Part shown: in pieces, positions 9,647 through 45,715 of the stretch
Layout: every line of letters begins with the position of its first letter
Position numbering within the stretch: the stretch's first letter is position 1
Assembly: GCA_029778615.1 (NCBI GenBank)
Contig: JAKOPZ010000154.1
Coordinates: forward strand, 1-45,715
Origin: Chloroflexota bacterium
Lineage (GTDB): Bacteria; Chloroflexota; Anaerolineae; UBA4142; SHND01
Length of the DNA stretch: 45,715 nt
Direction: 5' to 3'
The notes under the pieces: model-generated
Told to the model about the DNA's origin: nothing
Databases searched by the model: none
Seen by the model: the letters and a program-made list of their open reading frames with translations, nothing else
Program-made: the position numbers and the translations under genes

Positions 9647-9733
9647 GTCGCAACCGCGCGGCGTTCTGCTCCCTCCCTGTTCCCCCTGTTCACGCGCAAC
9701 GTGGCGGGGGGAAGCAGGCGGGACAAATGTGAT

Positions 9734-10675: not shown

Positions 10676-10680
10676 TGTGC

Positions 10681-10920
10681 GGGCGAATCGAATTCGCAAC
10701 AACGCATCGCGAAATCAACCTTCGTTGATTGAGTCTGTGCGGGCGAATCGAATTCGCAGCAACGCATCGCGAAATCAACCTTCGTTGATTGAGTCTGTGC
10801 GGGCGAATCGAATTCGCAGCAACGCATCGCGAAATCAACCTTCGTTGATTGAGTCTGTGCGGGCGAATCGAATTCGCGGCAACGTATCGCGAAATCAGCC
10901 TGCGCTGATTGAGTCCGCGT
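10681..10920. repeat. Four tandem copies of a 60-bp hairpin unit (family B)
   Basis: Four head-to-tail units of exactly 60 bp. Each contains stem 1, GCGAAT/ATTCGC, and stem 2, AATCAAC-CTTC-GTTGATT. Unit 4 has AATCAGC-CTGC-GCTGATT, a compensatory A-T to G-C change. Units 2 and 3 are identical; unit 1 differs at one base. The array fills the gap between the two permease genes. Single related copies lie at 17095, 28077 and 43503. The unit is open in several frames only because 60 is divisible by three; I do not regard it as coding. Confidence 0.95.
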
Positions 10921-10974: not shown

Positions 10975-12066
10975 ATGCAAGTCAAAACTGCAAACGAAAC
11001 AATCACTGCCCAGCCGCTCGCCGTTCCCGCGCGTTGGGCGCGGCGTTTGCGCGACGCGAGCAAATCGTTCACTGTCACGTTCATCATTGTCGTCTTGCTC
11101 GCCGCGTTTCTTTCGCCGCTGCTTCGCATCACGACCAACTCGTTCAAGACCGCCGACCAGGTGGCGGAATTGGGCACACCGCTCTATCCTGCGAAACCGC
11201 GCACGTTGACGTACAATGGCGTCGAGTACGATATTTATAAAGTGCCGCTCGCGGATGGGATTCACGAACTCGCGCTGTACAAAAAAGGGCGCGCGACGAG
11301 CGAGTTTCTCGACCCCGCGAATCCCTCTGCGCCGCCGCTCGTGTGGGAGGGCGCGTGGCGTTCGCTCGACCGCGCGTGGGAATTTGCGCCGACGCTTTCC
11401 AATTATCAAAAAGTGTGGGAACTGCTCGATTATCCGCGCTTGATGTTCAATACAATCGCGCTCGCGATTTTGAGTACCATCGGCGTACTCTTTTCCAACA
11501 CGCTCGTCGCGTACGGCTTTGCGCGCTTTCGCATTCCGGGCAAACAATTTTTATTTACGATTGTGATTGCGACCATCTTTTTGCCCGAAGCCGTGACGCT
11601 CATCCCGACGTACACGTTCTATGTAAAACTCGGTTGGGTCGGCACGTGGCTGCCGTTACTCGTGCCCACATTTTTTGCGAACGCGTACGATATATTTCTT
11701 TTGCGCCAATTTTTTCTGACGATTCCGCGCGAGATGGACGAAGCGGCGATGATGGACGGCGCGGGACCTTTTCAAATTTTGCGTTCGGTGATTTTGCCGC
11801 AAGCGTGGCCCGCAATCATCGCCGTCGGCATTTTTCATTTCGTCTATGCGTGGAATGATTATTTCGGTCCGCTCATTTATCTTTCCACCCATCCCGAATT
11901 GCAACCGATTGCGGTAGGGCTCGCGCGTTTCAACAGCATCTATGGCAACAAACCCGAACTTACGCAAGCGGGAACGATTATGACACTGATTGTGCCGGTG
12001 ATTATTTTTATTTTCACGCAAAAGTTTTTCATGCAGGGCGTCGTGATTACGGGGGTTGAAAAGTAG
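10975..12066 (+). CDS. Sugar ABC transporter permease (MalG-like), module 2, with periplasmic insertion
   Basis: A 363-residue inner-membrane protein. After the first helix (FIIVVLLAAFLSPLLRITTNSFK) about 80 extra residues (PRTLTYNGVEYDIYKVPLAD and on to APPLVWEGAWRSLDRAW) form a soluble, probably extracytoplasmic, insertion before the normal LSNYQKVWELLDYPRLMFNT. The rest is standard: EAA loop IPREMDEAAMMDGAGPFQIL and C-terminus KFFMQGVVITGVEK. MalG-type permeases usually have about 270-290 residues. It works with the permease at 9734 and the binding protein at 8093. Confidence 0.9.
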   Translation: MQVKTANETITAQPLAVPARWARRLRDASKSFTVTFIIVVLLAAFLSPLLRITTNSFKTADQVAELGTPLYPAKPRTLTYNGVEYDIYKVPLADGIHELALYKKGRATSEFLDPANPSAPPLVWEGAWRSLDRAWEFAPTLSNYQKVWELLDYPRLMFNTIALAILSTIGVLFSNTLVAYGFARFRIPGKQFLFTIVIATIFLPEAVTLIPTYTFYVKLGWVGTWLPLLVPTFFANAYDIFLLRQFFLTIPREMDEAAMMDGAGPFQILRSVILPQAWPAIIAVGIFHFVYAWNDYFGPLIYLSTHPELQPIAVGLARFNSIYGNKPELTQAGTIMTLIVPVIIFIFTQKFFMQGVVITGVEK

Positions 12067-12068
12067 GT

Positions 12069-12130
12069 GTCAAGTAGTAGGTAGCGGGTAGTAGGGCGAC
12101 TTGATACCTGCTACTTGCTACTTGCTGCAT
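12069..12130. repeat. Heptamer repeats before the GH4 gene, inverted halves
   Basis: Left half is built from GTAGTAG/GTAGCGG-like heptamers, right half from CTGCTAC/TTGCTAC heptamers on the same strand. The two halves are near-complementary and can fold into one hairpin. The array ends eight bases before the GH4 ATG. Confidence 0.8.
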
Positions 12131-12137
12131 TCCAAAT

Positions 12138-13430: not shown

Positions 13431-13437
13431 GAAGCGA

Positions 13438-13566
13438 GAAACGTGAAACGTCAAATGTAATAACGAATTTATTCGTTCCATAGCTGATGGTTGATGGCAG
13501 GCGGCAAATCACAAATCACAAATCACAAATCACAAATCACCCAATCTCTAATCTCCAGTCTCCATT
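13438..13566. repeat. Ordered heptamer arrays before the chbG-like gene
   Basis: In order: ACGTGAA/ACGTCAA copies (13438-13457), a small hairpin AACGAAT-TT-ATTCGTT, AATCACA copies (about 13503-13540) and CCAATCT/CCAGTCT copies up to 13563. The ATG at 13571 follows directly, with no Shine-Dalgarno sequence. The order ACGTNAA, AATCACA, CCAATCT, ATG matches other loci in this window. Confidence 0.85.
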
Positions 13567-13570
13567 CCCC

Positions 13571-14452
13571 ATGAATCCCATTCTTTCCAAACTCGGTTAC
13601 GACGAAAACGCGCGCGTTGTCATTCTCCACGCGGACGATATTGGCATGTGTCAGGCGTCGGTGGACGCGTACGCGGAGCTTTTAGAATTTGGCATCATGT
13701 CCTCTGCTGCGACGATGGTGCCGTGTCCGTGGTTTCCCTACGCGGCGGAAAAATTCCACGCGTTGCAAAACAATCCGCGTATTGACATTGGCGTACATTG
13801 CACGCTCAACAGCGAATGGAAAAATTTCCGTTGGGGCGCGGTCTCGACACGCGACGCCGCGAGTGGTTTCTTGGACGCCGACGGCTATTTTTATTCTCGC
13901 AGTGAACCAACCCAAGAAAACGCGCAGCCCGATGCGGTAGAAATTGAATTGACCGCGCAAGTGAAACGCGCGCTCGCGGCAGGAATTGACGTAACGCATT
14001 TGGATACGCACATGCTCACGGTGTTTCATCCGCAACTCTTGCCGCCGTATTTGCGCGTCGCGAAAAAATTTCGTTTGCCCGCGTTCGTCTTGCGTCCCGA
14101 ACACGAATGGCTGCGCGAAATGCCGCGCAGCGTCAAGGCACACTTGCGCGCGGCGGAGAAACGCGGGATGCCGCTCTTTGACCATTTCGACGCGTTGGAT
14201 TTGTCGAATCACAAAAATCGTTTGCAAAAAGCGCAACGCGCGTTGGACGCATTGCCTGCGGGTTTGAGCGCGCTCGTGTTTCATCCCGTGCGCGACAGCG
14301 CCGAAGTGCGCGCGATGGCGCCCGATTGGAAATGTCGCGTCGCCGATTACAAATTATTTTTGAACGAACAATTCCGCGCGATGATTGCGGAATCCGGCGT
14401 ACACGTCATCGGTTATCGCAAACTGCGCGACGCGATGCGGAATCACGTTTGA
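13571..14452 (+). CDS. YdjC/ChbG family carbohydrate deacetylase
   Basis: A 293-residue cytosolic deacetylase. In E. coli, ChbG removes one acetyl group from chitobiose 6-phosphate, which is needed for ChbF action and ChbR induction. Motifs are VILHADDIGMCQAS (metal Asp pair D22/D23), GVHCTLNSEW (H76), THLDTHM and VFHPV. ATG 13571 is chosen because upstream in-frame codons only translate heptamer repeats (ITNHKSQITNHP). It lies between GH4 and kinase genes. The stop codon falls inside the first unit of the next heptamer array, so the last residues (NHV) are repeat-encoded. Confidence 0.88.
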   Translation: MNPILSKLGYDENARVVILHADDIGMCQASVDAYAELLEFGIMSSAATMVPCPWFPYAAEKFHALQNNPRIDIGVHCTLNSEWKNFRWGAVSTRDAASGFLDADGYFYSRSEPTQENAQPDAVEIELTAQVKRALAAGIDVTHLDTHMLTVFHPQLLPPYLRVAKKFRLPAFVLRPEHEWLREMPRSVKAHLRAAEKRGMPLFDHFDALDLSNHKNRLQKAQRALDALPAGLSALVFHPVRDSAEVRAMAPDWKCRVADYKLFLNEQFRAMIAESGVHVIGYRKLRDAMRNHV

Positions 14453-14557
14453 CGTTTGACGTTTGACGTTTTACGTTTGACGTTTGACGTTTCACGCTTT
14501 ATATCATTCGTCATCCGTCAAATCTCCAGTCTCCAATCTCTATTTTCCAATCTCCAA
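14446..14557. repeat. Ordered heptamer arrays before the BadF-type kinase gene
   Basis: ACGTTTG units (14446-14500, reverse complement of the ACGTCAA type) are followed by CATCCGTC-like sequence and CCAGTCT/CCAATCT units to 14557. ATG 14561 follows after AATTT. There is no Shine-Dalgarno sequence. The array begins inside the end of the preceding coding sequence. Confidence 0.85.
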
Positions 14558-14560
14558 TTT

Positions 14561-15559
14561 ATGCCTCACTATTTTCTTGGCGTTGACATTGGCAGTTCCA
14601 AAAGCCACGCGTGCGTTGCGGACGAAACGGGGCAAGTCCTCGGTTTCGGCAGCGCGGGCGCGGGCAATCACGAATCGGTGGGTTACGAAGGATTGATTCG
14701 CGCGCTCGACGAATCCACACAGCGCGCGTTGGCGCAGGCGAACGTTTCCAAACGCGACATCGCGGGCGCGGGGTTCGGCATCGCGGGTTTTGATTGGCAA
14801 ACCGAACGCGCGGCGATGCTCGACGCGATTTCGACATTGAAACTCGATGCGCCCGTCGAAATTGTGAATGATGCAATGCTCGGCGTGATTGCGGGCGCGC
14901 GTGACGGCTGGGGTGTCGCCGTCGTTTCGGGAACGGGCTGCACCGCGCGCGGACGCACGCGTGACCGCCAACGCGAAGGCATGGTTACGGGCGCGGGGCA
15001 GTGGATGGGCGAAGCAGCGGGCGCGGGCGAATTGGTGCGCTGGGCAATTCACGCGGCGGCGCACATGTGGACACGGCGCGGACCCGCGACCAAACTCGCG
15101 GACGCGTTGATTCAACGCGCGGGCGCGCGCGATTTGCAAGATTTGCTCGAAGGCATTATCAATTTTCGATACGAACTCGACGCGTCCGCCGCGCCGCTCA
15201 TTTTTGAAATCGCCGCGCAAGGTGATGTTGTCGCGCAGTCTTTGATTCAACGTGCGGGACGTGAACTCGGCGAATTGGCGAACGCGGTGATTCGGCAATT
15301 AAATTTTGAAAAGGAAAATTTCGATGTGGTGTTGGTGGGCAGCATGTGGAATTCGGGCGAGCCGCTCATTCGCCCGTTCCGCGAAACCGTGCTGCCGCTC
15401 GCGCCGCGCGCACAATTTGTAAAACTGTCCGTGCCGCCCGTTGTCGGCGCGGTGCTTTTGGGAATGGAACAAGCGGACCTCGCGCCCACACCATCTCTTC
15501 GCGAACGACTCGACGCGACGATTCATCAAGCACGCAGCGCGCCTGTGTTTGCTGCTTGA
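14561..15559 (+). CDS. BadF/BadG/BcrA/BcrD ATPase family protein, N-acetylglucosamine kinase-like
   Basis: A 332-residue member of the acetate-and-sugar-kinase/Hsp70 superfamily. The phosphate-1 motif is FLGVDIGSSKSHACVAD, the connect/phosphate-2 region VSGTGCTARGR, and adenosine-binding motifs follow (GAGQWMGEAAGAGELVRWAI, VVLVGSMWNSG). Characterised relatives include N-acetylglucosamine kinase; others are benzoyl-CoA reductase subunits, excluded here by context. It could phosphorylate GlcNAc or an imported chitooligosaccharide, supplying substrate for the GH4 enzyme. ATG 14561 is preferred because the 35 codons upstream of it in frame translate heptamer repeats. Confidence 0.82.
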   Translation: MPHYFLGVDIGSSKSHACVADETGQVLGFGSAGAGNHESVGYEGLIRALDESTQRALAQANVSKRDIAGAGFGIAGFDWQTERAAMLDAISTLKLDAPVEIVNDAMLGVIAGARDGWGVAVVSGTGCTARGRTRDRQREGMVTGAGQWMGEAAGAGELVRWAIHAAAHMWTRRGPATKLADALIQRAGARDLQDLLEGIINFRYELDASAAPLIFEIAAQGDVVAQSLIQRAGRELGELANAVIRQLNFEKENFDVVLVGSMWNSGEPLIRPFRETVLPLAPRAQFVKLSVPPVVGAVLLGMEQADLAPTPSLRERLDATIHQARSAPVFAA

Positions 15560-15599: not shown

Positions 15600-15691
15600 C
15601 GCGAATCTACGCGAATCAAAACGAATTCGCGCGAATAAAAAACAATTTTTTTTTCTTTGTGTAGATTCGTAACAATTCGCGTAGATTCGCG
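15600..15691. repeat. Inverted-repeat element (family C), 17-bp perfect arms
   Basis: CGCGAATCTACGCGAAT at 15600-15616 is the exact reverse complement of ATTCGCGTAGATTCGCG at 15675-15691. The interior is A+T-rich with poly-A and poly-T. A diverged relative lies at 39180-39236. The size and structure are those of a small non-coding mobile element. A T-run in the interior might also act as a terminator for module 2. Confidence 0.85.
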
Positions 15692-15713
15692 TTCAGGTGC
15701 ATGACTCTATAAT
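15686..15713 (+). promoter_or_regulatory. Candidate promoter for the chitinase gene, possibly leaderless
   Basis: A consensus -10 TATAAT lies at 15708-15713, only eight bases before the ATG at 15722. A weak -35 (TTCGCG, 15686-15691) is formed by the end of the inverted repeat. Transcription would begin at or next to the start codon. Confidence 0.5.
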
Positions 15714-21192: not shown

Positions 21193-21267
21193 CGAAATCA
21201 CGCATCACAAATCACCCCATCACCCCATCACCCAATCACCCAATCTCCAATCTCCAATCTCCAATTC
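21193..21267. repeat. Heptamer/octamer arrays before the GH3 gene
   Basis: Copies of ATCACAA, then CATCACCC octamers, then CCAATCT heptamers, ending three bases before ATG 21270. The order matches the arrays before 13571 and 14561. There is no Shine-Dalgarno sequence. Confidence 0.85.
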
Positions 21268-21269
21268 CT

Positions 21270-22847
21270 ATGAACCTCGCCCAAGCCGTCGGTCACAAAT
21301 GGATGTTGAGTTTTGGCGGCACGGAAATTCCGGCTGACGTCCAAGAAACCATCGCGCAGCAAACCATCGCGGGCGTGACGCTCTATCGCGCGCTCAATGT
21401 AAAAAATCCCGCGCAAGTGCGCGAACTCATCGCGTCGTTGCAGCGCGCCGCGCGCGAATCGAACCAGCCGCCGTTACTTGTCGCGGTTGACCAAGAAACG
21501 GGAACTTTGTTTGCAATTCCGCACACCACGCCGTTTCCGGGAAATCTCGCGCTCGCCGCGACGCGCGATGCCTCACTCGCCGAACGCATGGCGTATGCGG
21601 TGGGGCGCGAACTCGCGGCAATGGGCGTCAACATCAATCTCGCGCCCGTGTGCGATGTGATTGTAAATCCACAAAATTCTGCCGTCGGCGCGCGTTCGTT
21701 CGGTGAGGATGTGAATGTCGTCTCCCGAATGGTGAGTGCGTATGTCAAAGGTTTGCAGCGCGCAGGCGTTGCCGCAACCGCAAAACATTTTCCCGGTCAC
21801 GGTGATACCGACCTCGATTCGCATTACGGTGTGCCGATTGTGAATCACGACGCCGCGCGGTTGCGCGCAATCGAATTTCCACCCTTCCGCGCGGCGATTG
21901 AAGCGGGCGCGCGTTTGGTCTTGACCGCGCATCTCGCGCTGCCGCGTCTCGACTCGCAAGCCGATTTGCCCGCAACGCTTTCGCCGTACATTCTTAAAGA
22001 CATCTTGCGCGGCGAATTGGGTTTTCGCGGCGTCATCATCACCGACGCGATGGACATGCAAGCCATTTCGCAAGACCGGGGGATGATTGTGGATTCGATT
22101 ACGGCGGCGGCGGCGGGGATTGATGTGATGCTTTCGGGTCCGCGCCAAGCGGGTTCTACGTTGATGTACGATTCGATTTTGCAAGCCGCGCAGCGCAATT
22201 TAATTTCCGCCGCCGAAATGCAAACCTCTGCCGCGCGCATTGTCGAACTCAAAACATGGTGCGCGCAAAATCAAATGCTCGACCTCGCTGTCGTCAATTG
22301 CGCGGAACACAACGCGCTCGCGGATGAAATCGCCGCGCGTTCGATTACGCTCGTGCGCGATGAAACAAAACAATTGCCGCTGCAACTCGCGTCTGGTGCG
22401 CGCGTGTTGGTCATTGTCCCAACGCCGCAAGATTTGACGCCCGCCGACACGTCATCGTACGAACGCGTCGCGCTGGCGGACGCACTCCGCGCGCAGCATC
22501 CGTGCGTGGACGAAATCGTTTTGCCGATTGACCCCTCGGCGTCCGATATTGCCGCGCTGCGCGAAAAATTTTCCGCGTACGAAAAAATTATCATTGGCAC
22601 TCTCAACGCGACACAACACGCGGGGCAGGCGGCATTGGTGCGCGCGGCATTGAATGAAAATTCGGATACAATAATAGTCGCGTTGCGGATGCCGTATGAT
22701 TTACAATGTTTCCCGCACGCGCCGACATTCCTTTGCACATACTCCATTCAATCGCCATCGCTCCGCGCACTCGCACGCGTGCTATTCGGTCACGCGCACG
22801 CACAAGGCAAATTGCCCGTATCCATTCCCGATTTGTATCCTCTCTGA
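21270..22847 (+). CDS. GH3 family beta-N-acetylhexosaminidase (NagZ-like)
   Basis: A 525-residue glycoside hydrolase. The N-terminal TIM barrel carries the N-acetylglucosaminidase signature KHFPGHGDTDLDSH (residues 172-185), whose His/Asp dyad acts as acid/base, and the nucleophile D259 in GVIITDAMDM. A second domain (about 340-525) resembles the GH3 C-terminal domain, as in two-domain NagZ/NagA enzymes. There is no signal peptide, so it works in the cytosol on imported di- or oligosaccharides such as chitobiose or muropeptide-derived sugars. ATG 21270 is chosen because upstream in-frame codons translate the repeats. It follows module 3 permeases and precedes a binding-fold protein and a ROK kinase. 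Confidence 0.88.
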   Translation: MNLAQAVGHKWMLSFGGTEIPADVQETIAQQTIAGVTLYRALNVKNPAQVRELIASLQRAARESNQPPLLVAVDQETGTLFAIPHTTPFPGNLALAATRDASLAERMAYAVGRELAAMGVNINLAPVCDVIVNPQNSAVGARSFGEDVNVVSRMVSAYVKGLQRAGVAATAKHFPGHGDTDLDSHYGVPIVNHDAARLRAIEFPPFRAAIEAGARLVLTAHLALPRLDSQADLPATLSPYILKDILRGELGFRGVIITDAMDMQAISQDRGMIVDSITAAAAGIDVMLSGPRQAGSTLMYDSILQAAQRNLISAAEMQTSAARIVELKTWCAQNQMLDLAVVNCAEHNALADEIAARSITLVRDETKQLPLQLASGARVLVIVPTPQDLTPADTSSYERVALADALRAQHPCVDEIVLPIDPSASDIAALREKFSAYEKIIIGTLNATQHAGQAALVRAALNENSDTIIVALRMPYDLQCFPHAPTFLCTYSIQSPSLRALARVLFGHAHAQGKLPVSIPDLYPL

Positions 22848-25001: not shown

Positions 25002-25043
25002 AAACGTAGAGAGGTTCCGCCGGAACCTCTCTACGTTTTTATA
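24997..25043. terminator. Bidirectional terminator: 23-bp perfect palindrome (family D)
   Basis: Positions 24997-25019 (TATAAAAACGTAGAGAGG and TTCCG) are the exact reverse complement of 25021-25043, with a single central base. Runs of T lie on the 3' side on both strands. The stop codons of the ROK kinase (24999-25001) and of the convergent regulator (25041-25039) both lie inside it. The same GAGAGG-TTCC theme occurs inside purL at 45336-45360. Confidence 0.92.
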
Positions 25044-27018
25044 AACATTCCATAAACAAATTCATCTCGCGCACGCGCCGATGGCTCACTGCCCAACTCC
25101 ACGCGGCGCGCACATTTTCGCGTTCCGCGCCCAATGCGGTCAACGCGCTCCCCACATCTTCGCTCTGCAATTGCGCTTGATGCCGCGTCAACAATTCCGC
25201 GAAATAGCGACAGTGCGCGTCATGCACGCGTTCGTTTTCTTTATCTTGGCTCAATTTTTCATTCGCGTACAAATGCAATAATTCATGAATCGCATAGCGT
25301 CCCGCCGCGCTGCGCCGCAAGAGCGATTTGTCCACGAGTCCTGCCAACACGGGCAACGACGCGCCGACCACTTGCGCCGCCGCGTCGCGGTCAAAGCCAC
25401 CGCGAAACACCGCGAGCGAACGAAAAATTTCCTGCTCGCGCGGCGACAATAAATTCCACGAATACTCGAATACCGCGCGCACACTGCGATGTCGTTCGGG
25501 CGCGTCTTGCGCGGCGGTGACGAGAAAATCCAAACTCGCTTCAATCTCACTCGCGATTTCTTGCGGCGACAACATGCGCAGCCACGATGCCGCGAGCTCG
25601 ATGCCCAACGGCGCGCCTTCGACCAAGCCACAAATGCGCGCGACATCCAACGCGTTCTCTTCCGTCAATTCAAAATTGGAACGCGCGCGCTGCGCGCACT
25701 GGACGAACAAAGAAATGCCGCTGTAATCCAACATCGCGTCGAGCGGCAAGCCGCGCAGCACCGGATATTCCAGCCCGCCGATTTCCAAAAGATATTCGTG
25801 CTTCAAATTCAAACGCACGCGCGTCGTCGCAATTACGCGCACGCGCGGCGCGTAACGCAAAATGTCACTCAACGCGCGCGCTTCGGAAACGAATTGCTCA
25901 AAGTTGTCGAGAATGAGCAGCGCGCTCTTGTCGCGCAAATAATTCAACAATTGGGCTTGCGCGGGCAGTTTGCTTTTGAGTTCGACGCCGAGCGTGTCCG
26001 CAATCGTTTGAAATAACGCGCCGCGCGCATCTTCACTCGCCGCTGCGTCCGAAAGCGGAATTAGAAATACGCCGTCTGCGAACGGCGCGTCGAGATTCAT
26101 TTCGGGATCAATGCTCCGTTCCGCGACATGCAGCGCGAGCCGCGTTTTGCCCATGCCGCCCGCGCCGACGAGCGTAATCAATTGCGCGGCGGGATTGTTC
26201 AAATACGCGGCGATTTGGGCGAGTTCCTGTGCGCGTCCCACAAGCGGCGTCAATTGCGGCGGCAAATTGTGCGGGGGGGGGGCGGCAGTGGAGGCAATGC
26301 GTTCGTACAGCGCGGTGGTTTCGGGCAGCGGCGCGGCGTCGAGTTCTTGACGCAGAACGCGTTTGCAGATTTCGTACTGCGCGAGCGCGGCGCTGCGCTG
26401 CCGACTGCGCGCATACAAGAGCATCAGATGACGATGTGTCTCTTCGCGCCACGGCTCGATGGCGAGCAGTCGGTTCGCGTACTCGATGCCTGCCGCGTAT
26501 TCTTGACGTTCGAGGTGTTTGACCACGAGCGTATGCAGTGCCTGCACCATCAGCGTATTGAGCAGCGAACGTTTGCCGAGCACCCATTCTTCAAAGCCCA
26601 ATGTGTCGCCCGCGTAAAAGCCGTCCAAAAAATCGCCCTGTACCAATTCGACCGCGCGATGCAAATTTTGTGGGTCCTGTTTCGACGCGTCGTCGCCGAG
26701 CGCTTTCAAAAACAATTCCACGTCGAGCCAGTACGGGGCATCTTGAGCGAATGCAACCCGCTCGCGCGAAATGACGAGATGTTCGCCGACGAGCGCGCGC
26801 AGGTTGGACAAAACGTTGCGTAAATTTTTACTGGCCTGCCGCGTGGGCATGTCGCCCCACAACAGCGCGGCGAGGGCTTCACGCGCGTGCGCGCCATCGG
26901 TGACGGCGAGGTAAAACAGGAGCGCTTGCGCTTTGGAGGAAATGAAACCGGTGACCGGCTTGTCGTCCAATTTCACTTCGGGAGTGCCGAGCAAACGCAA
27001 GGTCAATGTTTTGGACAT
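25039..27018 (-). CDS. BTAD/NB-ARC transcriptional regulator (AfsR/SARP-like), C-terminally short
   Basis: A 659-residue multidomain regulator. Residues 1-90 are a winged-helix OmpR-like DNA-binding domain (LTLRLLGTPEVKL, ALLFYLAVTDGAH, ALAALLWGDMPTRQASKNLR). Residues about 95-235 are the BTAD domain of TPR-like helices. Residues about 255-560 are an NB-ARC-type ATPase with Walker A GAGGMGKT (285-292) and Walker B ALLILDNFE. The last ~100 residues are the winged helix after NB-ARC plus a start of helical repeats. Relatives usually continue into a long TPR sensor; here the frame stops inside a palindrome, so truncation is likely. ATG 27018 is chosen; further upstream is octamer repeat. A TACAAT -10-like box lies nine bases before it. 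Confidence 0.85.
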   Translation of the reverse strand: MSKTLTLRLLGTPEVKLDDKPVTGFISSKAQALLFYLAVTDGAHAREALAALLWGDMPTRQASKNLRNVLSNLRALVGEHLVISRERVAFAQDAPYWLDVELFLKALGDDASKQDPQNLHRAVELVQGDFLDGFYAGDTLGFEEWVLGKRSLLNTLMVQALHTLVVKHLERQEYAAGIEYANRLLAIEPWREETHRHLMLLYARSRQRSAALAQYEICKRVLRQELDAAPLPETTALYERIASTAAPPPHNLPPQLTPLVGRAQELAQIAAYLNNPAAQLITLVGAGGMGKTRLALHVAERSIDPEMNLDAPFADGVFLIPLSDAAASEDARGALFQTIADTLGVELKSKLPAQAQLLNYLRDKSALLILDNFEQFVSEARALSDILRYAPRVRVIATTRVRLNLKHEYLLEIGGLEYPVLRGLPLDAMLDYSGISLFVQCAQRARSNFELTEENALDVARICGLVEGAPLGIELAASWLRMLSPQEIASEIEASLDFLVTAAQDAPERHRSVRAVFEYSWNLLSPREQEIFRSLAVFRGGFDRDAAAQVVGASLPVLAGLVDKSLLRRSAAGRYAIHELLHLYANEKLSQDKENERVHDAHCRYFAELLTRHQAQLQSEDVGSALTALGAERENVRAAWSWAVSHRRVREMNLFMECL

Positions 27019-27047
27019 GACGAACGGATTGTAGCATGGAAAATGAG

Positions 27048-27095
27048 AAGGTGAAGGGGTGACAAGGTGACAGGGTGACAAGGTGACGGGGTGAC
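27048..27095. repeat. Octamer repeats upstream of the BTAD regulator
   Basis: Six copies of AAGGTGAC/AGGGTGAC/GGGGTGAC with an 8-bp period. On the coding strand of the regulator they read as pyrimidine-rich GTCACC units, the same polarity as the arrays upstream of plus-strand genes. Confidence 0.85.
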
Positions 27096-27175
27096 AACGC
27101 GACTATTTACGATACGCGATTCGCGGTTCCCGAATTGTGATACACTCGACAAAATTTTGAACAAAAGGAATAGAG

Positions 27176-28207: not shown

Positions 28208-28415
28208 TTTGTAAATAGCGAGACGTGTTTCCCCCGCATTAGTTTGTAAATAGCGAGACGTGTTTCCCCCGCATTAGTTTGTAAATAGCGAGACGTGTTT
28301 CCCCCGCATTAGTTTGTAAATAGCGAGACGTGTTTCCCCCGCATTAGTTTGTAAATAGCGAGACGTGTTTCCCCGCATTAGTTTGTAAATAGCGAGACGT
28401 GTTCCCCCGCGTCTC
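28208..28415. repeat. Six tandem copies of a 35-bp unit in a 5' leader
   Basis: Units of 35 bp start at 28208, 28243, 28278, 28313 and 28348 (34 bp, one C fewer), and a last variant starts at 28382. Each reads TTTGTAAATAGCGAGACGTG then TTTCCCCCGCATTAG. The final unit departs into CGCGTCTCAAGGAGG, where CGTCTC can pair with the GAGACG of any unit. There are no spacers, so it is not a CRISPR array. Confidence 0.95.
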
Positions 28416-30115: not shown

Positions 30116-30146
30116 GCGGCGTGAAAATTTTTCACGCCGCCCGTTT
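30116..30146. terminator. Intrinsic terminator between convergent genes
   Basis: GCGGCGTGAAAA (30116-30127) and TTTTCACGCCGC (30129-30140) are complementary, followed by CCGTTTTA. It lies between the secreted-protein gene and the end of the convergent glycosyltransferase gene. Confidence 0.8.
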
Positions 30147-33043
30147 TATTTCACCACCACGCGTTGACTCAACTCTACAAAATCTCCCGCGCCATTTCCA
30201 TTCGCATCAATGACTTGCAACCGCGCGAACGTCGGGTCGCTCGCGTCGTACCAGCCAATCAAAATTTTGTATTCGCCGGGCGGCACGTCAGGTTTGATTT
30301 CGAGCGTGTACGAATCGGTGAGGTATTCGCCTTCCACCCACGTTTGCGTCGGGCGTGCGCCATTCAACGGCTGCGAATCTTTTTGCGCGACGGGGGAGGG
30401 GGCAGTGCCGAGCATTTGCACAAATACCGTGTACGATTTTTCCATCTTGCCTGTCGCTTTCCAATACAAGGTGATTTGTAACGGCTCGCCTGCTTTCGCT
30501 TCTTGCGCGGAGACATCATATCCGACGAGTTCAATCGCGTTGTTGAAATTCGCGTGCTGCGAAACTTGCGGCGACGGCGCGGAAAAAGTGCGGTCCGTTT
30601 TTTCGACGACGAACGGTTGTTGCAGATTCACACTTTGTTTGTTGACTCCATCTCCAATCTCCAGTCTCAAGTCTCCACTCCACGCGTTTCCATCAGGCGG
30701 AATTTGAACTTTGTACTGCCCGCGCACAATTTCGCCCGCGCTCCATTGCGACGTGGGATAATTCGCGTTTGCCAATGGCTGTGGTGCGGAGAGCGAATCG
30801 CCGAATTGAATTTGAAAGGAATAATCCGCGTTCGGTTTTTCATCCGCGCGCCAGAATAATGTCAATGGAACACTGTCGCCGGTGCTCGATTTTTCCGCGC
30901 CGATTTGGTAACCGAGCAAAGTGAACGGCGCGAGCGGCGCAGAAAGTCCGTGTTGAATTTTCAAGTCCACAAACTGCGGCTGTTTTTGCGCGGGCAAAAT
31001 TTTTAGTGGACCGACCTTGACACTTTTTCCCAACGGCGCGCCGTTCGGCGCGAGTACGTCGAGTCCTGTTTCGTTTTGTTTTGTGAATAACGTGACCGTT
31101 GCAAAATATTCGCCCGCCGGCGTGCCGGGCAACAATTCCGCGACGTAATCGCCCGCGACGATTTCGTTTTGCTTCCAGCGCATCGTCGGATAATTGAATC
31201 CCGCCGGACGGCGGTCAATTTTCCCCCAAAACGTTCCGTTCGCGTCCACAATGCGAATCGCGACATTGTAATCGTCGGGAGTTAGTTGCAGCGCTTTCCA
31301 AAATAATCGGAGCGATGCGCCCTCGTTCGCGGGAATCGGATTTGGTTGTTCCCATCCCAACAACTGAAATGTATTTTGAAAATTCGCTTCTTTCGGATTT
31401 GTGATTTCGGGCGTCGTGGGCAATGGCGCGAATCCATTTTCAAATCGCCAGTGGCGCAAACGCACTTGCCAAAACGCCGCGTCTTGTTTTTGTTCCGCGC
31501 CGCGTTCGGACAACAGCATCGGCACCACGCCGTTCGGGTCAGCCACTTCATCTTGCCACAGCACGAGCCACGCGCCGCGTTTGCCGTTCAATGCGCGATT
31601 GATTTCATTCGCCGCGTTGAAATTCAAAACATGGTCCGCGTTCAATGTCGCGTCGTCGGGCAAACGCAGTTCGGGTAATTTCGCATCCCGATAGTAATAA
31701 TCGAACGCGGGAAATAAATGTCCGCTCGTGAGAAGAATTGCTTCGTCGTCCTGCGCGTGTTGTGAAATAAAATTCGCGACGCCGCGAAAATCGGCTTTGG
31801 TGAACGCGGGGTCGAAATACGCGTTGGTGATGGAATAGAGAGAGGTAGCAAGTAGAAAAAGGAAACAGGTAGAAAGGAAAACATAGGACGCGGCACGCGC
31901 AAGAATGTTTTTGGAATGTGCGAGAGACAACAAACTCGCGAGTCCGGCGCCGAGCAAGAGATAAAAGCCCGGGGAGGCGAGCATGAGATAACGCGCATTG
32001 AATTTCGGATTGCGCGAAAAAAGTAGGAGCAAGAGCGCGAGGGGGACGAGGAGATAGAGAGTGGAAAACAAAAGGGGTGAAGAGGTGATGGGGTGAACAG
32101 GTGACAGGGTGACAGGGTGATTGGGTGAACGCCGGTGTGCCAGCAAACTTGCAACGAGCGCGACGGCGAGAATACCAAGCCATCCCAACGCAATCCACAC
32201 CGCGATATTTTCCAACACCGATTCGCCGACGGAAAAGTTGATGAGAATGTGGCGCAGCGCTTCGTCCCATTTCAAGTCCCCGCGAAAATAACTCGCATCT
32301 TCGCCGAGACGATTGAGCATGAACGGCACCCACGGGAGAAACGCGATGAGGATGGCGAGAAACGCGAAAACAAAATTGCGAAGGGCGTGTCGCGGACGAA
32401 CGGCGTATGACGAACGACGAATGATAATGCTGAGCGCGTACAAAAATTGAAACGCGAGCAGCGCGAATGCAAAGTAATGAGTGTACACCGCCGCGATGTT
32501 GGCGGCGACGAAAACAAACCACCAAAGCCGTCCGCGGGTCGTGGTTTTTTCAGCCGCCGATTTGAAATCGGCGGGCAAGGCGCGCAGTAACGCGTAACTC
32601 GACAGCAGTCCCAAAAATGTAATGAGCGTGTACATGCGCGCTTCTTGCGAATACCACACATAGAGCGCGGAAAGTGTGGCAAGCAGCGCGGCGAATAATC
32701 CCGTAGTGGCATTGAATAAACGCCGCGCGGCACTGTACATCAAAGGGATTGTGAGTACCCCAAAAAAGAGGGAAAGAAAACGCACCGCAAATTCCGAATC
32801 GCCCACGAGTGTCAGCCACAGATTCAGCACGTAATAGTACAGAGGCGGTTGAATATCCGCCGCCGTCCGCGCCGTAATCGTCGCGAGGTCAAAGCGCGCG
32901 AGATACACGCTGAACGCTTCGTCGTACCACAAACTTTGTTTGCCGAGTTGAAAAATGCGGAGCGCGAACGCGCTGAGGGTGAAAAAAGAAATGAGGGAAA
33001 GGTTGAATCGCCCGGCGATTCCGGAACTATGCGGCTTGTTCAT
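30146..33043 (-). CDS. GT39/ArnT-like membrane glycosyltransferase with three C-terminal beta domains
   Basis: 965 residues from ATG 33043 (ATG 33055 is possible). The N-terminal ~520 residues are a polytopic GT-C glycosyltransferase with the acidic lipid-sugar motif LWYDEAFSVYLARF in the first external loop, PPLYYYVLNLWL and YVWYSQEARMYTL. Residues ~560-965 hold three related beta-sandwich repeats, each opening with FQLLGWE/FTLLGYQ/IELVGYD and containing LRLFWKA/LTLFWRA/ITLYWKA. It probably transfers polyprenyl-phosphate-linked sugar outside the membrane. Three in-frame repeat insertions are visible: octamers at 32074-32130 (SPNHPVTLSPVHPITSSPLL), heptamers at 30651-30680, and a palindrome at 32554-32574 (LPADFKSAAEK). 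Confidence 0.85.
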   Translation of the reverse strand: MNKPHSSGIAGRFNLSLISFFTLSAFALRIFQLGKQSLWYDEAFSVYLARFDLATITARTAADIQPPLYYYVLNLWLTLVGDSEFAVRFLSLFFGVLTIPLMYSAARRLFNATTGLFAALLATLSALYVWYSQEARMYTLITFLGLLSSYALLRALPADFKSAAEKTTTRGRLWWFVFVAANIAAVYTHYFAFALLAFQFLYALSIIIRRSSYAVRPRHALRNFVFAFLAILIAFLPWVPFMLNRLGEDASYFRGDLKWDEALRHILINFSVGESVLENIAVWIALGWLGILAVALVASLLAHRRSPNHPVTLSPVHPITSSPLLFSTLYLLVPLALLLLLFSRNPKFNARYLMLASPGFYLLLGAGLASLLSLAHSKNILARAASYVFLSTCFLFLLATSLYSITNAYFDPAFTKADFRGVANFISQHAQDDEAILLTSGHLFPAFDYYYRDAKLPELRLPDDATLNADHVLNFNAANEINRALNGKRGAWLVLWQDEVADPNGVVPMLLSERGAEQKQDAAFWQVRLRHWRFENGFAPLPTTPEITNPKEANFQNTFQLLGWEQPNPIPANEGASLRLFWKALQLTPDDYNVAIRIVDANGTFWGKIDRRPAGFNYPTMRWKQNEIVAGDYVAELLPGTPAGEYFATVTLFTKQNETGLDVLAPNGAPLGKSVKVGPLKILPAQKQPQFVDLKIQHGLSAPLAPFTLLGYQIGAEKSSTGDSVPLTLFWRADEKPNADYSFQIQFGDSLSAPQPLANANYPTSQWSAGEIVRGQYKVQIPPDGNAWSGDLRLEIGDGVNKQSVNLQQPFVVEKTDRTFSAPSPQVSQHANFNNAIELVGYDVSAQEAKAGEPLQITLYWKATGKMEKSYTVFVQMLGTAPSPVAQKDSQPLNGARPTQTWVEGEYLTDSYTLEIKPDVPPGEYKILIGWYDASDPTFARLQVIDANGNGAGDFVELSQRVVVK
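30651..30680 (-). repeat. In-frame CCAATCT heptamers inside the GT39-like gene
   Basis: TCTCCAATCT, CCAGTCTCAA, GTCTCC: four degenerate heptamers. They encode DLRLEIGDG in the minus-strand gene, in a loop of the second C-terminal beta domain. Confidence 0.75.
32074..32130 (-). repeat. In-frame octamer array inside the GT39-like gene
   Basis: Seven degenerate octamers (GGGGTGAA, GAGGTGAT, CAGGTGAC, AGGGTGAC). They encode SPNHPVTLSPVHPITSSPL in a loop between two membrane helices. The unit matches the array at 27048-27095. Confidence 0.85.
32554..32574. repeat. In-frame palindrome (family B-like) inside the GT39-like gene
   Basis: CCGCCGATT-TGA-AATCGGCGG. It encodes LPADFKSAA in a cytosolic-looking loop. 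Confidence 0.6.
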
Positions 33044-36155: not shown

Positions 36156-36206
36156 ATTTAGCATTGTGCATTCTGCATTGTGCATTGTGCATTGTGCATT
36201 CTGCAT
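36156..36206. repeat. Heptamer array between convergent genes
   Basis: Seven copies of TGCATTG/TGCATTC with a 7-bp period, between the ends of the PlsY-like and DUF2079 genes. Confidence 0.85.
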
Positions 36207-36209
36207 TAT

Positions 36210-39240: not shown

Positions 39241-42066
39241 CTATTTTGGGGCAATTTCAAGCGCGCCGAGGGCAAAGGCAACATACGGCTTGGTCACACT
39301 TTTTCCAACCGTTACATTCGCGGGAACCTTGACGCTCAAATCCTCGACGGCTTGCCCGGGCGCGATTCCTTTTACGCCAATGAACGCGTGTCCCGCGCGA
39401 AATTGTCCGCGCAGGTTGGTTGCCACGCCCAATGTTTCCAGCGCCTCGAATGCTTGTTTGGTGAATTTTTGCGATGCATCGTCCACCGCCGCGCCCGCGA
39501 CGATTTCGCCTTGCGGCAGCCCCGCGACAAATTCTGCCAAACGCGCCGCCGCGCCGTCGTCCGCAAACGTATCGAACGTTCCCACCGCGTCCACGTTTCC
39601 GGTCTGCGCGTTGATAGCGACGAGGTGATACCCGCGCGTGTTTGGAATCACATTTTGCCCTGCGACAAAGATTTCGCCAAACTTGCCCGCGTCAAACCCC
39701 GCGCCCGTTACCAAAATATCTACAGGTGAAACAATGCCCGTGCCGCCGATGGTGCGGTCTTCGGGTGCAGCGTCCGCGAGCGCGGTGGTGTCCGTGACAA
39801 AAACCAATTCGTCCAATCCTTCGCGCAAAATGTTTTTTGGAATTTGTGCCGTATATTCATTCCACGCGTCCGATACATTCCATGCGGCAGCCGCTTGTCC
39901 GTTCACTTGCAGTTGAATTGTTTGCTGTGGACGCGCGCCGCGCAATCGCAACGTGATGGTGTAATTCGCGTCGGCGAGGGCAAGCCACATGCGCGCCTTG
40001 CCATCCATCGCCCAGCGCTCCCCCGCGCCCGCGTTGTCCTCTTGCGCGCTGCCCCACGCGTCGTCAAAATTCATCCGCGCCATATCCGACGCGGGGTCGA
40101 GCGATTGCGCCAAAGAGGGGGGGGGGAGCATGACGCGATAGACGCTGCGTTCGGCGTCGGCAAAAACAGGTTCGAGCGGAAAAATGTTTTGAAGGTACGC
40201 GAGCGTTTCGGGCGCAGTCTGTGCGCGATTTACGCTGACGTAGCGCACATCGAAAAATTCCAAAACGGCGTCCCGCGCCGCGCGGTCTTGTTCGATTTGC
40301 GAGGCATCCACCGTGCGTCCTTCTTCGTACGCAATCAAAGTTCGCAGTACGGGAATTTCGCTAAAGTAACGCAATTTGAAATCGGGAAAGCGCGAAGTGA
40401 TGCCGCCCAGACGACGCTTGTGGTCCGTCGTTTGAAAAAATTGCGCTACATCATCCGTTTCGCCTTGCATCACGATACTACCGCGCCAGCCGAGCGGCAC
40501 TTCCAAAACGGTGAAATCGCCCGGTTCGGCGCCCAGCGCGGAAAAAATTTCCGGCGGCGCAATTTTGGTGAGCGGAATCGGCAGCACCAATTGTTCAAAC
40601 ACGCAGAGCAACAACAACAGTACGAGCGCAGCGCGTGCGAACCCGCGCCGCGCGTTCCACAACGCGAGAATGCCCCACGCGAACAGCGGCAACAGCGCAA
40701 GCATCAACATTACGTTGAAACGCGCGGGATAACGATTGGCATTTACGAACGGGATGAGGCGCAAGAGTGCGAACGGCATCGGGAAATTTGTATTTTCGCC
40801 GTTCACGTACAACGTCGAACCGAACATCAACAGCGCAAACAAGAGCGCGCTGACGAACCAAAAACGCGCGGTTGACGTTTGACGCTTGACCCACAGCCCG
40901 AGCAAGGCAAGCGCGACAACCGCCCAACCGATGAATGCATAACTCGTATTCGCGCGTGTGATGCTCTCTGCCCACGCGCCCAAAAGTGGATGTTGTCCCG
41001 AAGGGAGAAAAAATGAAATAGGTTCAGCGGAAAAAATTTGAATGCGTCCGACGCCGGCGGTGAGGTAATAGCCGTAACGTTGAAAATCAAACGCGAGCGC
41101 AAGCACAAGGGGCAGCATTCCAACAGCAGCAATCACCGACGCGGCGATGATTTTTGCAAGCGTTGAAAAAAACGCGGCGCGCTGCGTAAAGAAAAGCAAG
41201 CCCAGATAAAAAAGGGTGAGCAGCGCGAGAAACGGCACAAAGGTCAATTCCGTCCACGCGGTCAGAATGAGAAACAAGCCGAGCATCCGCGCCACATGCC
41301 AATTGCCGCGCGGCAAACGAAAGAGATACAGCGCATAGTACGGCAGCCATTGATTGCTGATGAGCATGAAATGTCCCGCGACGACGTAATTCAAATGCCA
41401 CGCGCCAAATCCGTACAACGCGCCCGCGACAATTGCCGCCAGCTCTGTACGGAACGTTCGCCGTAACGTTCCTGTTCGCCACAACGTTCCTGTTCGCCGT
41501 AACGTTCCTGTTCGCCGTAACGTTCCTGTTCGCCACAACGTTCCTGTTCGCCACAACGTTCCTGTTCGCCACAACGTTCCTGTTCGCCACAACGTTCCTG
41601 TTCGCCGCAGCGTTCCTGTTTGCCGCGGCGTTCCCTCTGCCGCAGATGAGAACGAAACGGTGTTCGCTTCATACATTATTCTTTGCGCGAGGATTTCACG
41701 CGTGAACAAATACGCGCCGAACGCGCCGCTGACGAGCGCGAAAAACACCATGCTGTTTTGTGCGACGATGACGCCAAAATTTTGCTGAAGGGGAATGGAG
41801 AGAATGCCGTTGAGAAAAACCGGCGTATACGCGACCAGATTCAGCCCGAGCGGATAAAATAAATAATCGGTGGTAAAAGGCGTGCGTCCCAAATCGAGCA
41901 GTGCATACCGTGTCCACCACAAACTCCAAGTTTGCGCGGGACCGTCCGTATCGTGACCGGGGATGTGTGTGTTCAGATACAGCGCGAGGGGATACGTCAG
42001 AATGAGCGCGAGGACAAGATACAGCGCGAGAAGGAGCAGATATTTTTTGATGCGTGCGTGAGCCAT
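39241..42066 (-). CDS. Large membrane protein (GT-C-like) with C-terminal ILEI/FAM3-like domain
   Basis: 941 residues. Residues ~10-510 hold about ten to twelve membrane helices with GT-C-like features (GHDTDGPAQTWSLWWTRYAL, DYLFYPLGLNLV, NANRYPARFNVMLML). Residues ~520-780 are soluble. Residues ~783-903 match the ILEI/PANDER pattern: ILVTGAGFDAGKFGEIFVAG, NTRGYHLVAINAQTGNVDAV, FDTFADDGAAARLAEFVAGL and GHAFIGVKGIAPG. An 18-bp minisatellite (41450-41634) adds nine TGTL(W/R)R units between helices, following LFTREILAQRIMYEANTVS. Probable role: transfer of sugars to surface molecules. A promoter GCACAA/ATCATA (42132-42105, minus strand) precedes it. Confidence 0.8.
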   Translation of the reverse strand: MAHARIKKYLLLLALYLVLALILTYPLALYLNTHIPGHDTDGPAQTWSLWWTRYALLDLGRTPFTTDYLFYPLGLNLVAYTPVFLNGILSIPLQQNFGVIVAQNSMVFFALVSGAFGAYLFTREILAQRIMYEANTVSFSSAAEGTPRQTGTLRRTGTLWRTGTLWRTGTLWRTGTLWRTGTLRRTGTLRRTGTLWRTGTLRRTFRTELAAIVAGALYGFGAWHLNYVVAGHFMLISNQWLPYYALYLFRLPRGNWHVARMLGLFLILTAWTELTFVPFLALLTLFYLGLLFFTQRAAFFSTLAKIIAASVIAAVGMLPLVLALAFDFQRYGYYLTAGVGRIQIFSAEPISFFLPSGQHPLLGAWAESITRANTSYAFIGWAVVALALLGLWVKRQTSTARFWFVSALLFALLMFGSTLYVNGENTNFPMPFALLRLIPFVNANRYPARFNVMLMLALLPLFAWGILALWNARRGFARAALVLLLLLCVFEQLVLPIPLTKIAPPEIFSALGAEPGDFTVLEVPLGWRGSIVMQGETDDVAQFFQTTDHKRRLGGITSRFPDFKLRYFSEIPVLRTLIAYEEGRTVDASQIEQDRAARDAVLEFFDVRYVSVNRAQTAPETLAYLQNIFPLEPVFADAERSVYRVMLPPPSLAQSLDPASDMARMNFDDAWGSAQEDNAGAGERWAMDGKARMWLALADANYTITLRLRGARPQQTIQLQVNGQAAAAWNVSDAWNEYTAQIPKNILREGLDELVFVTDTTALADAAPEDRTIGGTGIVSPVDILVTGAGFDAGKFGEIFVAGQNVIPNTRGYHLVAINAQTGNVDAVGTFDTFADDGAAARLAEFVAGLPQGEIVAGAAVDDASQKFTKQAFEALETLGVATNLRGQFRAGHAFIGVKGIAPGQAVEDLSVKVPANVTVGKSVTKPYVAFALGALEIAPK
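41450..41634 (-). repeat. 18-bp minisatellite inside a membrane-protein gene
   Basis: About ten units of CGTTCCTGTTCGCCACAA/CGTTCCTGTTCGCCGTAA. On the coding strand they give nine repeats of TGTLWR or TGTLRR. All six frames stay open over much of the array. On the coding strand the unit reads GGAACGTTGTGGCGAAC, the same vocabulary as the GGAACGCTGCGGCGAGC repeat in the GH18 linker. Confidence 0.92.
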
Positions 42067-44018: not shown

Positions 44019-45715
44019 ATGTCACCTTTGATTCACTGTCTCGTCGTTTCTCCGCGCGTTGCGACCAACGCGCGCGCATTGGTTTCCGACGCGCACGCGC
44101 TCGGTTTGGAACACATCGCGCACATCGAAAAGCACGATTTGTATTTTTTGCAAGGCGCGTTGAGTGAAAATGATTTGGCGCGTTTGGCGAAGGAATTGCT
44201 CACCGATTCTGTCACACAAAAATTTGCATGGCGCAATGGCGCTCAAACACACGACGCGCAAGTTATCGAAGTCGCGTTTCGCCCCGGCGTCACCGATTCC
44301 GTCGCGCACGAGATTGTCCGCGCCGCGCACGCATTGGGCATTACAAATGTGGAACAAGCGGCGACGGGACAACGGTTCACCATTCGCGGCAACACAGAGC
44401 AGCCACTCACGGAAAACGAATTGCATCTCCTCGCACGGCGTCTGCTCGCCAACGACGTGATTCAACATTACGCGCTTGGAGAAATTGAACCGACATTCCC
44501 GCAAGACGCGCATGCATTGGGCATTGTCGAAACGATTGCGCTTACCGAATTGTCCGACGACGAACTCGTACAACTTTCCAACGCACGCCGCGCCGCGCTC
44601 GACCTGAACGAGATGCGCGCGATTCAAAATTACTATCGTTCGATTGGACGTGAAGCAACGGATGTTGAATTTGAAATGCTCGCGCAAACGTGGAGCGAAC
44701 ATTGTGTGCATAAAACGTTCAAGGCGAAGGTAGAGACTAGAGATTGGAGACTGGAGACTGGAGACTGGAGATTAGAGACTGGAGACTGGGGACTAGAGAC
44801 TAGAGAACTGTCATTTCGAGTGGAGCGTCCGATAGCGTTCATCGGCGAAATCTCCAATCCCCAGTCTCCAGTTATTTTCATAGACGGGATTCTCAAAACC
44901 TTCCTCCGCGCCGCGACGGAAAAAATCAATGCGCCGTTTGTGCGTTCGGCGTTTGTGGACAATGCGGGCATCATTGATTTTGACGACGAGTTTGAAGTTT
45001 CGTTCAAAGTGGAAACGCACAATCATCCGTCGGCGATTGAACCGTTCGGCGGCGCGAATACGGGCGTCGGCGGCGTGATACGCGATATTCTTGGCGTGAG
45101 CGCGAAACCAATTGCGGCGACGGATGTGTTGTGTTTTGGTCCGCAAGACGTGGACGCGCAAACTTTACCCGAAGGCGTTTTGCATCCGCGCGTGATTCGT
45201 TCGGGCGTCGTCGCGGGCGTTCAAGATTATGGCAACAAAATTGGGATTCCCACCGTCAGCGGCGCGATTTATTATGATGAAGGGTACACCGCGAATCCGT
45301 TGGTGTTTTGCGGCTGCGTTGGCATTGCGCGCAAGAGAGACGTTCCAACGGAACGTCTCTACAAGGATGACCGCGTAATTGTTTTGGGCGGACGCACGGG
45401 GCGCGATGGTTTGCGCGGCGCGACGTTTTCTTCGATGACGATGGACGCGCAAACGGGCGAGGTTGCGGGCGCGTCGGTGCAAATCGGCGACCCGATTACG
45501 GAAAAAGGTTTGATTGAAGTGATTACGCGCGCGCGCGATGAAAATTTGTATCACGCGATTACGGATTGCGGCGCGGGCGGACTTTCGTCGGCGGTTGGCG
45601 AAATGGCGAGCGATACGGGCGCGGATGTGGAATTGCAAAATGTGCGTTTGAAATATCCGGGACTCGCGCCTTGGGAAATTTGGTTGTCCGAAGCGCAAGA
45701 GCGAATGGTGCTTGC
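44019..45715 (+). CDS. purL: Phosphoribosylformylglycinamidine synthase PurL with N-terminal PurS-like domains (partial, runs off the window)
   Basis: 565 complete codons are present; the 3' end lies outside. The enzyme converts FGAR, glutamine-derived ammonia and ATP to FGAM in purine synthesis. Residues ~1-75 and ~85-165 are two PurS-like domains ([35 protein letters not shown]). The PurL part begins near residue 200, with [16 protein letters not shown] (W225), [20 protein letters not shown] and [17 protein letters not shown], then [16 protein letters not shown]. Two insertions keep the frame: 44730-44879, mostly heptamer and family A repeats ([19 protein letters not shown]), and a palindrome at 45336-45360 ([10 protein letters not shown]). 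No stop occurs to the window end. Confidence 0.9.
44730..44854 (+). repeat. In-frame heptamer array plus family A repeat inside purL
   Basis: About eleven GAGACTG/GAGATTG units (44731-44812) are followed by a family A copy (44810-44854, GTCATTTCGAGTGGAGC... CGAAATCTC) and a few inverted CCAATCC/CCAGTCT units. The reading frame passes through without a stop. Confidence 0.9.
45336..45360 (+). repeat. In-frame palindrome (family D) inside purL
   Basis: AGAGACGTTCC-AAC-GGAACGTCTCT, an 11-bp perfect stem, in the middle of a conserved part of the enzyme. It is related to the terminator palindrome at 24997-25043. Confidence 0.85.

Follow-up and report, generated by a model that had tools for sequence, protein, structure and literature searches.

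Heptanucleotide arrays and palindromes of fixed polarity in operon gaps and reading frames of a Chloroflexota genome

Known heptamer repeats and palindromes, and the DNA analyzed

The STRRs of cyanobacteria combine heptamer periodicity with slippage-like changes in copy number. Among palindromic repeats, REP elements are dispersed between the genes of operons and Rickettsia palindromic elements (RPE) lie in frame within ORFs; REP/RAYT elements and RPE each have a family consensus. In marine Beggiatoaceae, TAACTGA direct repeats (MacGregor, 2015) occur in 2 to 6 intergenic copies a few nucleotides before start codons that lack a Shine-Dalgarno (SD) sequence; they are mostly in one orientation, precede unrelated genes, occur sporadically across phyla, and in some genomes stand alongside related heptamers (PMC4679880). 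Long simple sequence repeats (LSSR) with 7-nt units are also on record (Mrazek et al., 2007, as summarized in PMC4679880). In quasipalindrome template-switch mutation, one arm is copied onto the other (PMC8794818, PMC7202029, PMC3820800); published work derives both hairpin arms and compensatory changes from template switching (PMC8794818), and quasipalindrome mutations in yeast have been linked to transcription (PMC3820800). We found no papers on such heptanucleotide repeats in Chloroflexota, in literature mostly outside subscription journals.

The window (the whole stretch of DNA analyzed) is one entire contig of 45.7 kb from a 6.0-Mb MAG of 372 contigs, whose nearest named relatives are "Anaerolineae bacterium" MAGs; nucleotide identity to the nearest genomes is ~82% across the operon compared. 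Statistics were taken from 58 contigs of the 6.0 Mb (0.95 Mb, 0.92 Mb readable), chosen mostly in contig order, with the rest of some long contigs and one array-holding contig added. Genes were called with a self-written dicodon caller (710 genes, 85% coding), on which gene starts and gap classes depend. With a mononucleotide background, starts were called inside arrays; with a retrained intergenic background, they fell at the ATGs of an initial annotation of the window (110, 12138, 13571, 14561, and 21270 on the plus strand and 27018 on the minus strand). An anti-SD check found no 16S gene in the MAG.

Placement of the arrays

Heptamer arrays precede the five plus-strand ATGs named in the initial annotation (110, 12138, 13571, 14561, and 21270), ending 7, 11, 6, 2, and 4 bp upstream, respectively. 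At the contig edge, CGTGAAA/CGTCAAA arrays (1-64) lie 5' of the CTACCTA array (78-102, within a heptamer-periodic stretch at 74-102) that precedes ATG 110. Directly 3' of the stop of 10975-12066, the inverted-pair scan found a G-skewed arm, CAAGTAGTAGGTAGCGGGTA (12071-12090), whose C-skewed partner, TACCTGCTACTTGCTACTTGCT (12105-12126), precedes ATG 12138; the hairpin of this gap (12067-12137) has a predicted fold of -40.1 kcal/mol, and its C-skewed arm is one of 49 G-first matches (G-skewed arm 5') to GTAG words in its own genome. In the gap at 13431-13570, CGTGAAA/CGTCAAA words past the stop (13438) are followed by (CAAATCA)5 at 13505-13540 and by a CCAATCT-type array at 13541-13564 before ATG 13571. 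An (ACGTTTG)7 array (14445-14496) overlaps the stop of 13571-14452, and a CCAATCT/CCAGTCT-type array (14521-14558) precedes ATG 14561. Before ATG 21270, AATCACCC is followed by (CCAATCT)3.7 (21197-21265, with the array at 21240-21265). Scanning within 150 bp detected no inverted partner for the arrays of 13431-13570, the ACGTTTG array at 14445-14496, or the CCAATCT array at 21240-21265. A further array was described before the minus-strand ATG 27018 of a BTAD/NB-ARC regulator gene (25039-27018); it is present on that strand ~26 bp upstream (27044-27097), but its unit is the octamer GGTGACAA, with a period of 8. Octamer GGTGACAA/GGTGACAG arrays also occur at C5:50170-50230 and C7:4127-4194 of G000, in both cases as near-perfect stop-to-start hairpins.

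The same annotation read a single order (ACGTNAA type, AATCACA type, CCAATCT type, ATG) at 13571, 14561, and 21270. What holds is the succession of AATCA-type words, CCAATCT-type words, and ATG at 13571 and 21270, with counts of 4:0 for this order across the sample and 2:0 among relatives. The AATCACA array is missing at 14561 and the ACGT array at 21270, and the ACGTTTG words before 14561 correspond to the CGTGAAA/CGTCAAA words of 13438 read on the other strand. Two other arrays depart from placement at start codons altogether: a GCATTGT array (36161-36207) occupies a convergent gap with stop codons on both sides, and a heptamer array on the minus strand (30650-30675) lies in frame within the called ORF 30146-33043, where the coding strand yields the peptide RLEIGD. 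A long palindrome at 44731-44872 (GAGACTG-type arm 44731-44806, loop of 42, AATCTCC arm 44849-44872) lies upstream of the minus-strand ORF 44022-44711, at a locus (C264:44731) whose gene call is uncertain.

Across the sample, period-7 arrays occur at 0.52/kb in noncoding and 0.053/kb in called coding DNA and are thus ~10 times denser between genes, an intergenic overrepresentation of 7-nt tandem repeats that recalls STRRs and LSSRs. Other periods in noncoding DNA reach 0.10/kb for period 8 and at most 0.03/kb for periods 5, 6, 9, 10, 11, and 13; the period-7 arrays of the window and sample are far beyond chance. A census of heptamer dimers placed AATCTCC, ACTGGAG, AAACGTC, and AATGCAC among the commonest words, and the TAACTGA necklace was absent from the 50 commonest listed. 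Array density was 1.18/kb in co-directional gaps (n = 55), 0.29/kb in divergent gaps (n = 4), and 0.30/kb in convergent gaps (n = 1); the deficit in divergent gaps is clear at the level of density (p = 3 × 10⁻⁴), while gap-level tests are borderline (p ~ 0.06) on these small counts.

The claim of start-codon placement is partly borne out by these data. Like the TAACTGA heptamers, arrays here often end a few nucleotides 5' of starts without SD sequences: 20 of 52 ends lie within 15 bp of a start, a moderate enrichment over the 11.7 ± 2.7 expected from random placement in the gap, and SD-like 4-mers are found at 5 of 34 array-abutting starts versus 211 of 657 others, in agreement with the reported lack of SD sequences. 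Unlike the TAACTGA repeats, however, the arrays are not mainly at starts and also occur within ORFs; in co-directional gaps, 38 are closer to the upstream stop and 27 to the start. The two groups have opposite base skew, with stop-side arrays G-skewed in 24 cases versus 11 and start-side arrays C-skewed in 22 versus 4 (p = 7 × 10⁻⁵). Heptamer arrays are not a start-codon element. Nor is placement at start codons without precedent, as the initial annotation had supposed: the TAACTGA heptamers of Beggiatoaceae adjoin SD-less starts (PMC4679880).

Inverted pairing, polarity, and change between species

A reverse-complement partner was detected within 150 bp for 38 of 113 arrays and for none of the other 75. 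Many of the gaps printed share one layout, namely, a stop codon, G-skewed heptamers, a loop, the reverse-complement heptamers, and an ATG, and the TAG, TGA, or TAA stop often belongs to the G-skewed heptamer unit. The reverse-complement score of arrays against their own co-directional gap was 11.4, compared to 6.6 against other gaps (p = 3.6 × 10⁻⁶, n = 58), and the direct-orientation control gave no excess (6.3 versus 6.9). For in-ORF arrays taken alone, pairing gave a p value of 0.1. Many start-side arrays are one arm of a hairpin that reaches from the stop of one gene to the ATG of the next. This recalls ribosome termination structures (PMC7518266) in that stable predicted stems begin at the stop between operon genes, and differs from them in heptamer makeup and in the copies within ORFs. 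While the TAACTGA set has one dominant word and a single reported inverted repeat, we find many words and many G-first pairs; this inverted-pair architecture and its polarity also set the arrays apart from STRRs, for which we found neither described.

Hairpins are a general property of gaps in this genome. In array gaps, the folding z-score is below -2.5 in 24 of 45, with stems beginning at -15 to +16 relative to the stop; of the gaps of 40 to 200 nt without arrays, 68 of 194 have z below -3, and their 3' arms end mostly near the ATG. When half-gaps were swapped, own halves gave -24.8 and swapped halves -16.5 kcal/mol, with a similar excess in gaps without arrays. Because MFE z-scores did not separate array gaps from others (mean, -2.43 versus -2.20), we left folding strength out as evidence for the arrays. 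For the arrays at 13505, 14445, and 21240, a hairpin reading could be extended by analogy only, since no partner arm was detected there.

Of the inverted heptamer pairs, 31 in all, 27 have the G-skewed arm 5' and none the C-skewed arm, and four are undecided. The rule holds for four pairs in called ORFs (one of them at C264:44731, with its uncertain gene call) and is independent of gene direction because a palindrome reads alike on both strands. Swapping the order of GGAGATT-type half-patterns in 298 genomes of the class gave 186 G-first and 7 C-first matches, as sums over the table with overlapping registers counted, in 27 and 3 genomes, respectively. Of the three genomes with C-first matches, two are members of a single family, f18, and lack any G-first match. 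Reversed GGAGATT palindromes, with the C-skewed arm first, were seen in G098 and G140 (family f18) and at L191 and L192, where no G-first copies were found. For GTAG-type words in 20 relatives, the count was 90 versus 0, and every one of these matches came from four genomes of the genus.

Paired arrays have their C-skewed arm on the 3' side, toward the next start, and their G-skewed arm toward the stop that precedes. This polarity at ATGs follows from the palindromes being G-first on either strand, including in ORFs, so that it is largely fixed by palindrome geometry. The suggestion that the arrays reflect more than random slippage was correct to the extent that a fixed polarity was found, largely from this geometry. 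Unpaired arrays follow a weaker trend (stop side, 11 G-skewed and 7 C-skewed; start side, 2 and 11; p = 0.025), which may reflect decayed palindromes or a genuine start-side preference. Given the start-side enrichment and the unpaired C-skewed arrays, those of 13571 and 21270 among them, a role in the mRNA leader keeps some plausibility. A hairpin at 9647-9733, 3' of a solute-binding-protein gene, has the opposite polarity, with its pyrimidine arm first and its purine arm near the ATG; with its orthologues in L105 and L126 it is found in three species, and its sequence differs among them.

Palindromes of the words found in gaps also occur in frame in the middle of ORFs, remote from start codons, where they yield peptides. 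In an oxidoreductase, the loop between GWERPNWF and PRGW carries GAGACT/AGTCTC words in G000, G004, and G001, GGGGATTGG/CCCC-type words in G003, and a perfect palindrome of unrelated sequence in G010; two other genomes have short loops without a palindrome. Of 20 loci with GGAGATT palindromes in other genomes of the class, 13 are within ORFs of at least 335 amino acids, called by length only and some possibly spurious; one lies in an acyl-CoA-ligase-like gene, named from its peptide. Simple translation shows a stop within GTAGCAG words in some reading frames, a possible reason for finding the sampled GTAG palindromes in gaps.

We compared ~15 orthologous gaps, as examples that give no rate. 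In gap 12067-12137, a GTAGCAG-type hairpin is found here and in G002 and a CAGACGA-type hairpin in G004; in L127 and L129, relatives of 75% identity, the hairpin is absent and there is only an SD-like leader. Array order in gap 13431-13570 is kept in G004 and G002, with very different copy numbers. The ACGTTTG array (14445) is absent from the orthologous gap of both, and the array at 14521-14558 has a shorter counterpart of its type in G004. At C36:15688, the hairpin has GAGACTG words here and GTAGCAG words in the G004 orthologue. Both arms carry the new word together in these examples at C264:12067 and C36:15688 and in one protein loop. Like the products of quasipalindrome mutation, the arms match beyond expectation and change word together between species; quasipalindromes have been described as mutation events, whereas the heptamer palindromes seen here form a standing population across the genome, fixed in polarity.

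Origin of the palindromes

The observations to be explained are the period, the inverted pairing, the polarity, the in-ORF copies, and the change of word and copy number between species. We propose an element class in which a G-skewed heptamer array is followed, after a loop of ~3 to 40 nt, by its reverse complement as a C-skewed array; many copies have a single arm. The best explanation we can offer, in which our confidence is about evenly balanced, is that 7-nt slippage and fold-back template switching act together where DNA is weakly constrained. Replication slippage in 7-nt steps would make one arm longer; an altered word would then be copied onto the opposite arm by fold-back template switching (quasipalindrome correction), so that the two would switch word jointly. 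The palindromes would persist where constraint is low, chiefly in short co-directional stop-to-start gaps but also in some protein loops that tolerate them. A hairpin filling such a gap would put the end of its C-skewed arm a few bases 5' of the ATG, which would give both the placement at start codons and the polarity. We infer this cause from the patterns above, and by analogy the single-arm arrays at 13571, 14561, and 21270 may come from the same process. Several findings count against it. Template switching by itself predicts neither the G-first rule nor its reversal in two f18 genomes; 75 of 113 arrays, including the main ones at those three starts, are partnerless; the occurrence of the GGAGATT word in 27 genomes of 10 families resembles sequence spread more than independent slippage; and the excess of arrays in co-directional gaps argues against pure neutrality. 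Our guess is that the G-first rule is tied to transcription or R-loops, which would also suit the co-directional preference. More tentatively, we suggest that a patchy, class-wide population of heptamer palindromes, fixed in polarity (G arm 5', reversed in one family), is renewed by directional, perhaps transcription-linked, fold-back copying, filling short operon gaps and writing new peptide loops into proteins.

The main rival to slippage and template switching is selection for intercistronic RNA hairpins, in which the stop-to-ATG stem would set translational coupling or insulation of the downstream gene, or operon mRNA stability, and the heptamers would be easily renewed stem material. The concentration of arrays in co-directional gaps would fit it, as would the frequency of stop-to-start stems in gaps without arrays, the retention of hairpins in orthologous gaps despite changed sequence, and the reportedly widespread structures directly past stop codons (PMC7518266). 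Against this stand the like palindromes deep within ORFs and the gain and loss in conserved operons (the ACGTTTG array relative to G004 and G002; the gap 12067-12137 hairpin relative to L127 and L129), and hairpins are so frequent that their joint presence in the ~15 gaps compared may be chance. We consider such selection rather unlikely as the explanation, and it may act alongside the mutational process. Mobility of REP-type palindromes, moved by a RAYT-like Y1 transposase, would account for words that recur across one genome and across 10 families, some of them containing GTAG, and PF01797 genes are present in 17 of 20 relatives. Yet in the flanks examined a heptamer array was found at only 2 of 16 RAYT-type (PF01797) loci, and gene number does not track palindrome number (4 genes and 0 GTAG palindromes in G001, 2 and 24 in G003, and 0 genes with 3 GGAGATT palindromes in G011). 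Copies also differ in word, and in length by 7-nt steps, unlike REP and RPE with their consensus. We regard this mobility as improbable and rejected it as unsupported. A phage origin was also rejected, as viral contigs hold no palindrome in either arm order. The ordered composite translation-initiation or leader element first proposed for these arrays is, in our judgment, highly improbable. It draws on the enrichment near starts, the AATCA-CCAATCT succession, the scarcity of SD-like motifs, and the C skew of unpaired start-side arrays; but stops hold as many arrays as starts, arrays lie at gene ends and in both orientations throughout the 0.92-Mb sample as well as within ORFs and a convergent gap, words vary from gene to gene and among orthologues, and in paired cases the C-skewed arm would be buried in a stem.

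Heptamers near starts have hitherto been read as translational regulators, and here palindrome geometry accounts for much of their placement and polarity. With arm words changing jointly in sister species, the birth and upkeep of hairpins, by template switching or by compensatory selection, could be studied naturally in these genomes, and protein loops would be rewritten by a repeat process at the DNA level. The one-sided polarity, with its reversal in a single family, is a clean regularity that calls for an explanation and lends itself to study from sequence alone.

The window also holds repeats of other kinds. In the gap upstream of 10975, a 60-bp REP-like unit is repeated four times (10676-10915); the orthologous gap of G004 and G002 lacks it. 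A 35-bp direct repeat, TTTGTAAATAGCGAGACGTGTTTCCCCCGCATTAG, is present in six near-perfect copies at 28208-28410, and nine 18-bp repeats of GTTCGCCACAACGTTCCT, a multiple of three, lie within the called ORF 39241-42066 (41456-41624). A dispersed TCATTTCGAGCGG...GAAATCTC element, possibly a MITE-like repeat, forms intergenic hairpins at 2322-2491 of the window and at C5:44115-44274, C47:14712-14892, and C12:5944-6093 of G000. REP-like CGCGAATCTACGCGAATC palindromes recur in gaps at 15610-15700 of the window and at C7:1842-1969, C27:24972-25080, and C21:2015-2145 of G000.
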